Of a DNA stretch of 35,039 bases, positions 5,554-31,051 are shown one piece after another; the first letter of the stretch is position 1; each line of letters begins with the position of its first letter. Position numbers and translations under genes: made by a program. This stretch comes from an uncultured Opitutales bacterium. Lineage in GTDB: Bacteria > Verrucomicrobiota > Verrucomicrobiia > Opitutales > Intestinicryptomonadaceae. The DNA is taken from the NCBI GenBank assembly GCA_944389575.1, contig CALXMX010000065.1:1-35039 (forward strand). Reading direction: 5' to 3'. The notes beneath the pieces were generated by a model. That model worked only from the letters and a program-made list of their open reading frames with translations. It did not search any database and was not told the DNA's origin.

Positions 5554-7416
5554 ATGCCCCTCATAAAAAACAGCAGCATAGAGGAAATAAAGGCGAAGGT
5601 GCGAATAGAGGACCTCGTATCCCGCTATGTGCAGCTGAAAAAGGTCGGGGCGAACTACCGCGGGCTAAGCCCGTTCAAGCACGAAAAGACACCATCGTTC
5701 TACGTCTATCCCGACAAGAATTTTTACTATTGCTTCAGCACCTCGCAGGGGGGCGACATATTCAAATTTGTCCAGACGAAAGAAAACATGTCGTTCGTCG
5801 AAGCCGCGGAGTTTATCGCCGACAGATTCGGAATAAGGCTGGAGTACGAAAGGGGCGCAAAGGCCGGCGCGGGATCCAGCGTAAGGAAGCAGATCTTCGA
5901 CATAAACGAGGACGCCGCCGCATATTACTCCGCGGAATTTTTTGCGAAAAACCCGCGGGCGGAATCGGTGAGAAATTATTGGACGCAGGAGAGAAAATTC
6001 ACGCTCGAAAACGCGAAGGAACTGCGCATAGGATTCTCCCCTACGGACGCGGAGGGGCTTAAAAAAATTCTGGCGAAAAAGAACTATTCGCCCGACGCCC
6101 TGCGCGAGTGCGGGCTGTTTTTCGCCCGCGAATCCGAAGCCGACCTCGCGCGCTTTCACCCGCGCTTCCGCGGGCGGCTGATGATACCCATATCTGACGG
6201 CCAGGGGCGCGTCATAGCGTTCACGGCGCGCAAGACCGAATTCACGCCGTCCGACATCGCGTACGAGGAGGGCAAATACGTCAACTCTCCGGAAACTCCC
6301 GTATTCAAAAAAAACATGACGCTGTTCAACTTCGACCGCGCGAAGAAGGAAGCCGAACGGCGCGGATATTTCATACTCGCGGAGGGGCAGCTCGACACGA
6401 TAAGAATGTATTGCAGCGGATTGGAAAACACCGTGGCCTCGCAGGGGACGGCCGCAGGGGCGGAACACTTCGCGCTCATGAAGCGCCACGCCGACAGGGT
6501 GGTGCTTCTGTTCGACGGCGATTCGGCCGGCCGCCACGCCGCGCTGCGCGCCATACCGATTTGCATAGCCGCCGACATTGAGCCGTTCGTCGCGCAGCTG
6601 CCGCCGGACGACGACCCCGACAGCTTCATAGCAAAAAATGGCGCCGATGCCATGAGGGAACTCGTCGAAAACGGCAAACTGCCGGCCCTCAAATTCGCAA
6701 CCCGCGAAATTCTGGCCGACACTCCCGCGCCCGACATGCGCGCAAAGCGCAAGGCCATGCTCGAAATTTTCGCCATGCTCAACGGCTGCAAGTCGGAGGT
6801 GCTACGGGACGACTATCTCAGGGAGATAGCCTTCAACCTCAATTTGGAACTCCCGTCCGTAATCGGTGACTACAAAAAATTCAAGACAACTCCGGCGTTT
6901 CGGCCGCCGAGCGGCGACGCGCGGCAAGGCGGAAAGGATATTGACTCAATTTCGAAAATACTGGATAAAAAAGAGGAAGGAATGTTGACAAATGCCGTTT
7001 ATGACGCTTTATTTGTATGCTTGCATTTCAGCAATGTCGCGGAGGGTCTGTCCCAGATACTCCAAGACAGTTGGATTGGAGGCGAGAGGGCGGAAGACAG
7101 GGCATTGTGCCGTCTGCTGGCTTTGTATAGAGAGGGAATAGAGTTTTCCATCGACCAAATACCGGAGCTGTTCGACGACGAAGACGAAAAAAACCTGCTC
7201 TATAAGCTCTGCTCCGGCGACGGGCGGCTGATAGAAAATCCCGTCAAATACGCCAACAGCTGCATATGCAAAATCCACAAGAATTTTATATCAAAGCAAA
7301 TTGAAGACCTTAACGCGGAGCTAAAAAAGTCCGATAAGCAGGATTTCGAGCTATTGAGAAAAATCAGCAAATTGAGAAGGGATTTCATGAAACCGCCGGC
7401 GCTGCTGGCGGAGTGA
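5554..7416 (+). CDS. dnaG: DNA primase DnaG with degenerate zinc-finger ligands
   Basis: Synthesises RNA primers at the replication fork together with the replicative helicase. The 620-residue product has an N-terminal CHC2-type domain (about 1-100), a catalytic core with the conserved [10 protein letters not shown] and [11 protein letters not shown] segments, and a TOPRIM fold with Glu277 (AEGQLD) and Asp321/Asp323 (FDGDSAG). The N-terminal domain keeps the family scaffold (EKTPSF, GGDIFKF), but three of the four usual zinc ligands are replaced: Ser39, Lys42 and Thr63, with only Cys60 retained. The C-terminal helicase-interaction region is present but divergent. rpoD follows immediately, the classic macromolecular-synthesis arrangement without rpsU. 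Identification is certain; whether the finger binds metal is doubtful. Confidence 0.96.
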
Positions 7417-7436
7417 TTCGCTTTTTAAAAAGAGAT

Positions 7437-9578
7437 ATGGCCAAAAACAACGCAAAGAAAGCCGTCAGTGCGGCAAAGAAGAATCCGGCAAAGCCGGCGA
7501 CTAAGAAAGCGTCCGCTCCAGCAAAAAATGCGGTGCAAAAACCCGCGCAAAAGAGCGTAAAGCCCGCCTCGAAGCCGAAGGTTGCGGACGCGGCAAAAAA
7601 GGTTTCCAAGCCGAAGGCGCAAGTTAAGACGGCCTCCAACTCGGCGGCGAAAAAGCCCGCGGCAAAAGCTCCGGCAAAAGTTCCGGCAAAAGTTCCGGCA
7701 AAAGCTCCGGCAAAAGTTCCGGCAAAAGCGCAGGACAAAATTCAGGACAAGGCGCAACCGAAGGCTCCGCAAAAAAAGGCTGCGGCCGGCGAAACGCAAA
7801 AGAACGCCGCGCAAAAGCCCGCCTCCCCCGCGGCAAAGGCCGAGGCTTTGAAGCCCGCCGAGCGCAAGCCCTCCAAGAGCGAACAATCGGAGGCCGCCCA
7901 CAAGCGCGATTTGAACGAAAAGATCCGCCAGCTCATACACCTGTCGAAGGAGAAGGGATTCCTGACAAATCAGGACATCAACAAGCACCTCACCGAAACG
8001 CTGAGCAATCCGGAAGAATTTGAGAAGGTGATAAACATACTCGAGAACCTCGACGTGGAGATACTCGACGGCGAGGAGGAAATCGAGAGCTACAAACACC
8101 GCAAGGAGGAATCCGAGGAGCGCCAAACGCGCGCCCAGCAGAGCGACACTCTGGACGACCCCGTAAGAATGTACCTCAAGCAGATGGGGCAGGTTCCGCT
8201 GCTTACGCGCGAGGAGGAAATATCGATTTCAAAGCGCATAGAGGCCGCGGAGGCCAAAGCTGTCAAGGCGCTGTTTTCCGTCGCGCTGACGAACTCCTAC
8301 CAGCTCAATATGGCGAAGAAGCTCTCCGCGCGCGAGGAGCGCTTCGACAAGATAGTGCTCGACAAAAAAGTGGAAAGCCGCGAAAACTACTTCCGCGACC
8401 TGCCCAAATACATAGAGGAGGCCGAAAAGCTCGAAGAAAAGCTGTCGAAGTCGTGGGAGAACGCGCAAAACGCCGCCACTCCCGCCATGCAAAAGCGCCA
8501 CATGACGCTGTACCACCATCTGGAGGAAAACCTCAAGGACATCTACCTCAAGGGATACCGCTTTAAGCTCAAAATTTTCGAGGATTTTCTGGACAGCCTG
8601 TCGCCGACCCTCCGCGAGATAGAGGACTGCATGTACAAGCTGCGCGCCATCGAGAAGATCGGCAAAAAGACGAAGATAGGCGACGCCGACGCAATCAACA
8701 GGCGGCTGGCTGAAATAAAGAACAAATATCGGATAGAGCCCGCCGAGCTCGTGGAGCTTGTCAAATCCGTCCGCCAGGCCATGCGCGAGGCGCACAGGGC
8801 CAAGACCGAAATGGTGCGCGCAAACCTGCGCCTTGTGATTTCGATAGCGAAGAAGTACACAAACAGGGGATTGAACTTCCTCGACCTGATTCAGGAGGGC
8901 AATATGGGGCTCATGAAGGCGGTCGAGAAATTTGAGTACAAGCGCGGATACAAATTTTCCACATACGCCACATGGTGGATACGCCAGGCCATAACGCGCT
9001 CAATAGCCGACCAGGCGAGGACGATACGCATTCCGGTACACATGATAGAGACCCTCAATAAGGTCATGCAGGTGCAGAAGCAGCTCCTTCAGGAGTTCGG
9101 GCACGAGCCCACGCCGGAAGAGGTCGCAAACGAAATGCAATTTCCCGTGGAGAGGGTTCAGGCGATAATGAAAATGGCGCAGCAGCCCATTTCCCTGCAA
9201 AGCCCCGTGGGCGATTCCGACGACACAAACTTCGGAGACTTCATAGAAGACAAAGGAGCGGAAAATCCGTACGACATGACTGCCTACTCGCTACTGAGGG
9301 AAAAGCTCATGGACGTGCTCAATTCTCTCACTCCGCGCGAGCGCAAGGTTCTAAGCCTGCGCTTCGGCCTGCAAGACGGGTATTCGCGCACGCTGGAGGA
9401 GGTCGGCAAGCAATTCAACGTCACCCGCGAGCGCATACGCCAGATAGAGGCCAAGGCGCTGCGCAAGATGCGCCACCCGATTAGGATTCGCCAGCTTCAC
9501 GGCTTCTTTGAGGCGGAGGGCGGAACGTCGCGCCCCGGATTCGACCAATTCAGGAAAGAGCGCGAGGAAAGAGATTAG
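7437..9578 (+). CDS. rpoD: Primary sigma factor RpoD (sigma-70) with long basic N-terminal tail
   Basis: Directs RNA polymerase to housekeeping promoters. From the ATG at 7437 the protein has 713 residues. The first 145 or so are a Lys/Ala/Pro-rich tail made of PAK-type repeats. Then come region 1.1 ([19 protein letters not shown]), region 1.2 ([18 protein letters not shown]), region 2 with [12 protein letters not shown] and the [17 protein letters not shown] helix, region 3 and region 4 ([15 protein letters not shown], then the [16 protein letters not shown] helix-turn-helix). The dnaG stop overlaps an in-frame GTG at 7413 (GTGA), giving an alternative start 8 codons upstream. I prefer ATG 7437 because it opens the basic tail and follows an AAGAG stretch, but the choice is uncertain. 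Probably co-transcribed with dnaG. Confidence 0.95.
7659..7730 (+). repeat. Six 12-bp tandem repeats inside rpoD
   Basis: Six near-identical units of CCGGCAAAAGTT (variants end CT or CG, the first begins GC) encode alternating PAKA/PAKV tetrapeptides in the sigma factor's basic tail. The perfect 12-bp period is in frame, so gain or loss of units would change tail length without a frameshift. Confidence 0.92.
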
Positions 9579-18394: not shown

Positions 18395-18466
18395 CTCCCG
18401 CCGCCTTCGCTATAAGCCAGGCCGTAATTTTAAAGGGATTGCGGCCTTTCTTTTGGCTCTATTAAA
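18395..18466 (+). pseudogene. Relic of the tmRNA (ssrA) 3' end with terminator hairpin
   Basis: Aligned without gaps to 30828-30899 (the acceptor arm of the intact tmRNA and its terminator). The first 12 bases, CTCCCGCCGCCT, are identical. The CCA end has decayed. The terminator stem GGCCGTAAT/ATTGCGGCC (18420-18428 and 18438-18446) is preserved with a G-U pair, as are AAAGGGATTGCGGCCTTT and TTTTGGCT. Constant spacing between tRNA-like end and hairpin argues for duplication of an ssrA 3' end, as left by an element that integrated there, rather than a generic terminator. The T-arm to the left is no longer recognisable. Confidence 0.7.
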
Positions 18467-18481
18467 CCAAGCCAATATAAA
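18453..18481 (+). promoter_or_regulatory. hicAB promoter
   Basis: TTGGCT (18453-18458), a 17-base spacer and TATAAA (18476-18481) form a good sigma-70 promoter. The -35 is the last part of the ssrA-type terminator relic. Transcription should start near 18488, just upstream of the leader frame and operator. Confidence 0.65.
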
Positions 18482-18508
18482 TTTTTATTTTTTTCTTGCG
18501 GGAGATAA

Positions 18509-18538
18509 ATGCAACTATATTTAGTTGCAAAAAAATGA
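18509..18538 (+). CDS. Possible nine-codon leader peptide of hicA
   Basis: ATG at 18509, four bases after GGGAG (18500-18504), opens MQLYLVAKK and stops at TGA 18536-18538, overlapping the hicA ATG (ATGA). The hicA ATG itself has only A residues in front of it, so ribosomes finishing this frame could re-initiate at hicA. The palindromic operator lies within it. Inferred from layout only. Confidence 0.45.
   Translation: MQLYLVAKK
18510..18529. promoter_or_regulatory. Inverted-repeat operator, probable HicB site
   Basis: TGCAACTA (18510-18517) and TAGTTGCA (18522-18529) are perfect inverted 8-mers around a 4-base spacer, just downstream of the promoter and six bases before hicA. Ribbon-helix-helix antitoxins of the HicB family repress their own operons at such sites. 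The repeat could also form an RNA hairpin over the hicA start. Confidence 0.65.
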
Positions 18539-18789
18539 AAAAAGATAAACTCTTGCAGAAGCTTTTGAGTATGCCAAAAGACTACCGTTGGGAAGAATTA
18601 ACGGTTGTTTTGGCGAGTCTGGGATATTCCGAAGCATCGACAGGCAAGACAGGCGGTTCAAGAAGAAGATTTATTTCCGTTAATAACAAGAAGGCGTTAA
18701 CATTTCACAAACCGCACCCGAAGGGAATCTTGAAAAGATATCAGATAAAAAGCGTGATAGAAACATTAAAGGCGGAAGGATTGATATGA
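18535..18789 (+). CDS. hicA: HicA-family mRNA interferase toxin
   Basis: An 84-residue protein of the HicA double-stranded-RNA-binding-like fold: a ribosome-dependent-independent mRNA cleaving toxin neutralised by HicB. Visible are TGKTGGSRRRF, in the position of the G-S-H loop of classic HicA, and the FHKPHP-x-LKRYQIKSVIETL segment typical of the subgroup with Arg after GS. The catalytic His must then be one of the FHKPHP histidines, or activity may be altered. ATG 18535 was chosen; a TTG 13 codons upstream is possible but lacks a ribosome site. The gene is AT-richer than its neighbours, which fits horizontal acquisition. Its stop overlaps the hicB start (ATGA). Confidence 0.88.
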   Translation: MKKDKLLQKLLSMPKDYRWEELTVVLASLGYSEASTGKTGGSRRRFISVNNKKALTFHKPHPKGILKRYQIKSVIETLKAEGLI

Positions 18790-30493: not shown

Positions 30494-30845
30494 GGGGGCG
30501 TCCCGGAATTCGACTTTTCATCGTAGGGCGGGTCTGCATGCCGAAGACGACACTTGGCTTCGTAAAAATGTGTCAAAAAAACATAAATGGCGAAGAATAC
30601 GCTATTGCCGCTTAATTGACGCGGCACGTCCGTTCCCCGACTCCCGATAGGGGAAGCCGGGCGTCGACATCGGGAAAAGGGGGCAAGCGCGTTGCGCGCC
30701 GGCGTTTGCCCGCCATTACGGCGCGATGCTCGGCGGGCGGTTGCCGTTTCCAACCCCGCCGAAAAGATCCAATAACGGCTAAGCATGTAGCATGGCGCGC
30801 GCGAAAGTGTCAAGGACGCGGGTTCGACTCCCGCCGCCTCCACCA
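30494..30845 (+). ncRNA. ssrA: Transfer-messenger RNA (tmRNA), one-piece
   Basis: Rescues ribosomes stalled on broken mRNA by acting first as an alanyl-tRNA and then as a short message that tags the nascent protein. The 5' GGGGGCG (30494-30500) pairs with CGCCTCC (30835-30841) including the conserved third-position G-U, and ACCA is encoded at the end. The T-arm is GCGGG-TTCGACT-CCCGC, and GGAATTCGAC follows the 5' arm as in other tmRNAs. The tag reading frame ends NGEEYAIAA with TAA at 30613-30615; the upstream codons read AAA AAC ATA. The exact resume codon is not certain. Length, 352 bases, is normal. A terminator follows 7 bases later. Confidence 0.95.
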
Positions 30846-30852
30846 AGAGCCA

Positions 30853-30887
30853 GGCCGCAATTCTAAAGGGATTGCGGCCTTTGTTTT
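30853..30887 (+). terminator. Rho-independent terminator of ssrA
   Basis: GGCCGCAAT (30853-30861), loop TCTAAAGGG, ATTGCGGCC (30871-30879), then TTTGTTTT. AGCCA and TGGCT flank it and can extend the stem. A degenerate copy is at 18420-18456. Confidence 0.9.
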
Positions 30888-31051
30888 GGCTATATAAAAG
30901 GGATTGAAAACAGGCACCACCTTCCAATGCCATCGCGTCGATATGTCAAAATTATGGCTTTTTACGCTTGAAAAGTCCTCGCGAAATCCTCCATCGCTCC
31001 ATCGGAAGAAAGGGAAAATCCGCGACCGTTTTTCAAGCAGGCGCGGCGCTT

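Follow-up and report, generated by a model that had tools for sequence, protein, structure and literature searches.

A degenerate copy of the ssrA 3′ end and its terminator next to a mobile hicAB cassette in an uncultured Opitutales bacterium

Among named organisms, the uncultured bacterium studied here is closest to gut Opitutales (Verrucomicrobiota). Its genome carries, 12.4 kb upstream of its intact tmRNA gene (ssrA) and on the same strand, a degenerate second copy of the 3′ end of this gene together with its terminator. The window analysed here is a whole contig (C65) of 35,039 bp, from an assembly of 2.08 Mb in 221 contigs that is 87% complete. Integration at the 3′ ends of tmRNA and tRNA genes is textbook knowledge, and the relic is probably one half of a decayed attachment site, derived from the traffic of tyrosine-recombinase elements at the ssrA 3′ end. 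It is most likely the footprint of this well-known process and not a new kind of element. The coordinates of the relic and of the features around it and around ssrA are collected in Table 1.

Table 1. Features of the window that bear on the origin of the relic.
Feature	Start	End	Strand	Description and evidence
Relic of ssrA 3′ end and terminator	18395	18466	+	T-loop/acceptor part with decayed CCA, followed by terminator; 62/72 identity
Relic terminator hairpin	18419	18447	+	Terminator scan and fold
hicAB cassette	18489	19150	+	Foreign, low G+C; 88% to G001 over 665 bp
Palindrome TGCAACTATATTTAGTTGCA before hicA	18510	18529		Kept in G001
hicA, predicted toxin gene	18535	18789	+	ATG at 18535, frame open from 18496; Pfam HicA_toxin 8.2e-9
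hicB, predicted antitoxin gene	18786	19124	+	Pfam HicB 2.5e-21
ssrA (tmRNA), intact	30494	30845	+	ARAGORN; Rfam RF00023, 152.7 bits
ssrA 3′ flank, putative fossil integrase-proximal end	30846	30985	+	Terminator at 30852-30880 and segment with CTTGAAAAGTCCTC

A repeat search of the window aligns positions 18395-18466 with 30828-30899 over 72 nt, on the same strand and without gaps, with 62 of 72 identical positions (86%), whereas the next-best gapless score over all window positions is 37/72. When the ssrA 3′ end is compared by BLAST with its own whole genome, the relic ranks second after ssrA itself (E 2.4e-18). The identity is unevenly distributed: the block CTCCCGCCGCCT is perfectly kept (12/12), the patch of the CCA end retains 3 of 8 positions, the terminator 41 of 45 and the tail 6 of 7, which means that the CCA patch is far more altered than either the 12-mer before it or the hairpin. 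Within the window, CTCCCGCCGCCT is confined to the relic and ssrA, and its chance of occurring at a given position is about 5e-6 under an order-1 Markov model. Both hairpins fold, that of ssrA with −25.3 kcal/mol (z −3.9) and that of the relic with −22.6 kcal/mol (z −2.8) and one G-U pair. A previous sequence-only reading had already described the gapless alignment, the identical block, the decayed CCA end and the hairpin kept with a G-U pair, all of which hold. Its proposal of a relic of the ssrA 3′ end and terminator is supported by the gapless match and by an ssrA-specific 12-mer that only the relic shares.

A weak similarity extends 10 nt more into the T-arm, back to about 18385, where five out of six mismatches are transitions; considered together with those of the CCA patch, transitions amount to 9 of 11 mismatches, a small number whose bias fits decay better than unrelated sequence. 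The preservation of the hairpin could be due to selection as a terminator ahead of hicA, a putative role. Behind ssrA, the terminator is followed by an arm region that is missing from the relic; this absence and the strong alteration of the CCA patch speak against an attachment-related origin. Among the ssrA genes of the genus with 3′ ends read, CCGCCGCCT is found only in that of this genome (others show, for example, CCACCT), which, together with the restriction of CTCCCGCCGCCT within the window, indicates that the relic comes either from the ssrA of its own lineage or from an element matched to ssrA.

The hairpin is present in exactly three copies in the genome, those of ssrA and the relic and a third one behind tRNA-Arg(TCT) on contig C196, so two of them lie behind stable RNAs and a dispersal behind many unrelated genes, as contemplated in the first reading, is not observed. 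The flanks of ssrA and tRNA-Arg(TCT) are 83% identical over 130 nt, far longer than a terminator. The loop motif AAAGGGATTGCGG also occurs behind tRNA-Met, and in relatives behind tRNA-Cys and tRNA-Gly, and the unrelated tRNA-Asn and tRNA-Lys genes of this genome follow the pattern of ssrA and tRNA-Arg, with a common 3′ flank of 133 nt (84%). Such common flanks and repeated hairpins would also be expected from a dispersed stable-RNA terminator copied by recombination among tRNA and tmRNA 3′ flanks, with a bit of ssrA attached and without any integrative element. This origin is unlikely, however, because the common flanks lead to integrase genes in relatives, and because the relic contains the ssrA-specific 12-mer and yet is not preceded by any stable-RNA gene (Rfam, relaxed threshold). 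At this same threshold, no dead tRNA gene was found ahead of the relic hairpin.

Among 12 genomes of the genus the ssrA 3′ flanks diverge strongly, except for a terminator common to a few of them, and the linkage between integrases and tRNA genes is genus-wide. In the genome G002, a tyrosine-recombinase gene follows both tRNA-Ser(GCT) and tRNA-Cys at a fixed short distance (PHROG integrase, 1e-18 and 2e-26, with Pfam matches absent or below cut-offs), with a phage tail gene behind the latter tRNA, and an integrase is likewise located behind tRNA-Ser(GGA) in G004. In G002, the flanks of ssrA and tRNA-Ser share about 200 nt of homology, and that of ssrA enters the start of a broken integrase (69% over 29 aa, interrupted by one stop). 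On the other hand, the first 115 nt of the tRNA-Cys flank of G013 are nearly those of G002, without an integrase. The occurrence of the same flanks with an integrase in G002 and without it in G013 indicates that this type of flank is the integrase-proximal end of an element, either intact or fossil. When all stable-RNA flanks are compared, those of ssrA and tRNA-Arg in the window genome can be chained at equal offsets to the flanks of G002, and this chain of similarities suggests that the flank of the window ssrA would be a fossil end of the same kind; tblastn finds no integrase remnant behind this ssrA.

Displaced 3′ ends are also found in relatives. In G050, of the same order, ssrA is immediately followed by an integrase, and 49.7 kb downstream the same strand bears a displaced ssrA 3′ end; displaced ssrA 3′ ends also occur in G035 and G032. 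An element in ssrA, for which the first reading advised a search in related genomes, is thus present in G050 and, in a decayed form, in G002. The isolate Puniceicoccaceae bacterium Marseille-Q1082 (G001) contains a prophage of about 50 kb behind tRNA-Ser(TGA), at ~945 kb, with genes for integrase, helicase, primase, terminase, portal and tail. At its far end, at 995.36 kb, a tRNA-Ser 3′ end is joined to what looks like the former terminator, a sequence that makes up the terminator of tRNA-Ser(CGA) in G008. This prophage end indicates that an RNA 3′ end with its terminator, located away from the gene, is a product of attachment sites in the genus. The ssrA and tRNA 3′ ends of the clade are thus supported as integration sites, as the first reading held for tmRNA in general. 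Two ssrA 3′ ends in G028 are apparently overlapping contig ends and were left out, and the comparison of the integrase with viral contigs gave three distant matches.

The G+C content drops to 0.36 at 18400-18600, where a cassette begins in which two neighbouring genes, one with a HicA and one with a HicB domain, predict a HicAB toxin-antitoxin system, with TGCAACTATATTTAGTTGCA as its probable antitoxin operator. HicA is present in just 2 of 14 genomes of the genus, and the cassette shares 88% identity with that of G001 over 665 bp, whereas the protein of the neighbouring DEAD-box gene shows 63-78% identity across the genus. In G001, hicAB adjoins an integrase that is 51% identical to the tRNA-Ser integrase of G002. 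The cassette is therefore mobile, since an integrase element carries it in a relative, and the toxin-antitoxin pair, described as acquired in the first reading, is indeed foreign. The homology with G001 begins at 18489, 23 bp beyond the relic, and the G001 element has no relic. Searches with the relic-hicAB stretch gave no match in phage and plasmid collections, and those with the hairpin and hicA no confirmed match in viral contigs. The G001 element is small (~4.3 kb) and splits an aldo/keto reductase gene (L321:8220-12700).

Integration puts the 3′ fragment downstream of the gene, and Islander rejects 3′ fragments found upstream (PMC4383910), so the relic, due to its upstream position, is not filed as the partner of the intact ssrA. 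The interval between them is occupied by chromosomal genes, among them those for a major-facilitator transporter and for polynucleotide phosphorylase, and a 12-kb island extending from the relic to ssrA is ruled out by these genes together with the wrong order. A tblastn search of the window with five integrases of the clade gave no integrase remnant, its best match (E 0.02) lying antisense to the gene for polynucleotide phosphorylase. The decayed attachment scar proposed by the sequence-only reading remains the best reading of the relic, but its pairing with the intact ssrA is not supported, and the integrase relic that this reading advised to look for was not found in the window. Comparison with the relatives of the genus shows that gene order is barely conserved, also around the relic, and for this reason no orthologous empty site was found in them. 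In the closest species (G011), the contig starts inside the DEAD-box gene, no full ssrA was found and there is no empty site. In G002, ssrA and the DEAD-box gene share one contig, a linkage that looks coincidental, with no other relative of the window genes between them.

A short, single copy in direct orientation, with no integrase nearby and in a fragmented assembly (221 contigs), could also result from a plain segmental duplication of the ssrA 3′ end or from its copying by template switch, in either case with no mobile element involved, or from an assembly artefact. Such origins appear improbable, since the copy spans from the T-loop to just beyond the terminator and thereby has the same edges as the attachment segments of the clade, the distance to a mobile cargo cassette is only 23 bp, and a divergence of 14% speaks against an artefact.

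An attachment-related origin as a whole seems rather likely, and its most plausible pathway would start with tyrosine-recombinase elements that carry or displace a unit formed by the 3′ end of an RNA gene and its terminator. One such unit, as part of an element, would have reached 18395 together with the hicAB cassette. The integrase and the remainder of the element would have been lost afterwards and the CCA end would have decayed, leaving the hairpin nearly intact. Either an ssrA-type element may have settled at a secondary site, leaving its (left) end and hicAB, or a displaced ssrA end, as the right end of an element, may have been shifted upstream by rearrangement. The secondary site is preferred because it would explain the relic and hicAB together, even though in G001 the orientation of hicAB relative to its integrase and attachment site is the opposite one, and no far end was found. 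Rearrangement is plausible, as gene order is hardly conserved in the genus.

A slightly new aspect is the joint movement of terminator and 3′ end in this clade, so that terminators vary among the ssrA genes of sister species and are common to unrelated RNA genes within one species. Fossil ends of elements can thus be recognised without an integrase, the relic being one example. A bolder and rather doubtful generalisation would regard the stable-RNA 3′ end and terminator as an exchangeable module in the genus, in which elements would overwrite the native terminator, the host would keep that of the element after its loss, and the module could be left away from the RNA gene, as at 18395.

The relic resembles the displaced tDNA fragments described by Islander (PMC4383910) in being the 3′ end of a single ssrA, in direct orientation, extending from the T-loop to the 3′ end and with foreign cargo nearby. 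It differs from them in its upstream location, the lack of an integrase, the presence of the terminator and the chromosomal genes in the interval, and it would fail the configuration and integrase filters of that method. In Dehalococcoides (PMC3146451), ssrA islands integrate at a single-copy ssrA, a site shared with our case, whereas the phylum is another one and the window offers one decayed fragment with no mapped island. A likeness also exists to the tRNA-Ser(TGA) prophage of G001, whose far end is also a displaced 3′ end with terminator, although that element is apparently complete, with about 50 kb and the correct geometry.

G001 also contains an insertion sequence of the ISL3 family (Pfam DDE_Tnp_ISL3, 4e-58), with 29 copies of its end sequence. 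Twenty of these 29 ends lie, in one orientation, at most 350 bp behind a stable-RNA gene of the same strand. They fall at 16 of the 47 such genes, whereas about 0.3% per site would be expected, and one more end follows a tRNA-Pro that was missing from the tRNA list on which the count is based. An ISL3 element also follows ssrA in G006 and G012, and a tRNA in the window genome. Two places on contig C1 of G001, at ~995.36 and ~1026.73 kb (L364:14300-14410 and L366:7670-7775), show a tRNA-Ser 3′ end, half a terminator and ISL3, with different outer sequences on both sides. The ISL3 copy is apparently located within the loop of the terminator, and it may have moved with adjacent DNA. The literature searched on ISL3 and tRNA gave no description of such a preference, which is weak evidence of novelty, and this observation is possibly worth more than the relic itself. 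An insertion sequence of this type, located in stable-RNA 3′ flanks and carrying adjacent DNA along, could in principle have brought the unit to 18395, considering that in G001 the last tRNA-Ser bases and half a terminator accompany ISL3 twice, at sites separated by 31.4 kb that differ in sequence past the element, but the relic has no ISL3 end and its terminator is whole, which makes such a transfer very improbable.

Two repeats complete the description of the contig. A direct repeat of 123 nt (positions 1-123 and 309-431, 96%) is found at the contig end, and an array of 12-base direct repeats of the CGGCAAAAGTTC type at 7636-7767 falls in the N-terminal extension of an RpoD-like sigma factor gene (7413-9578).
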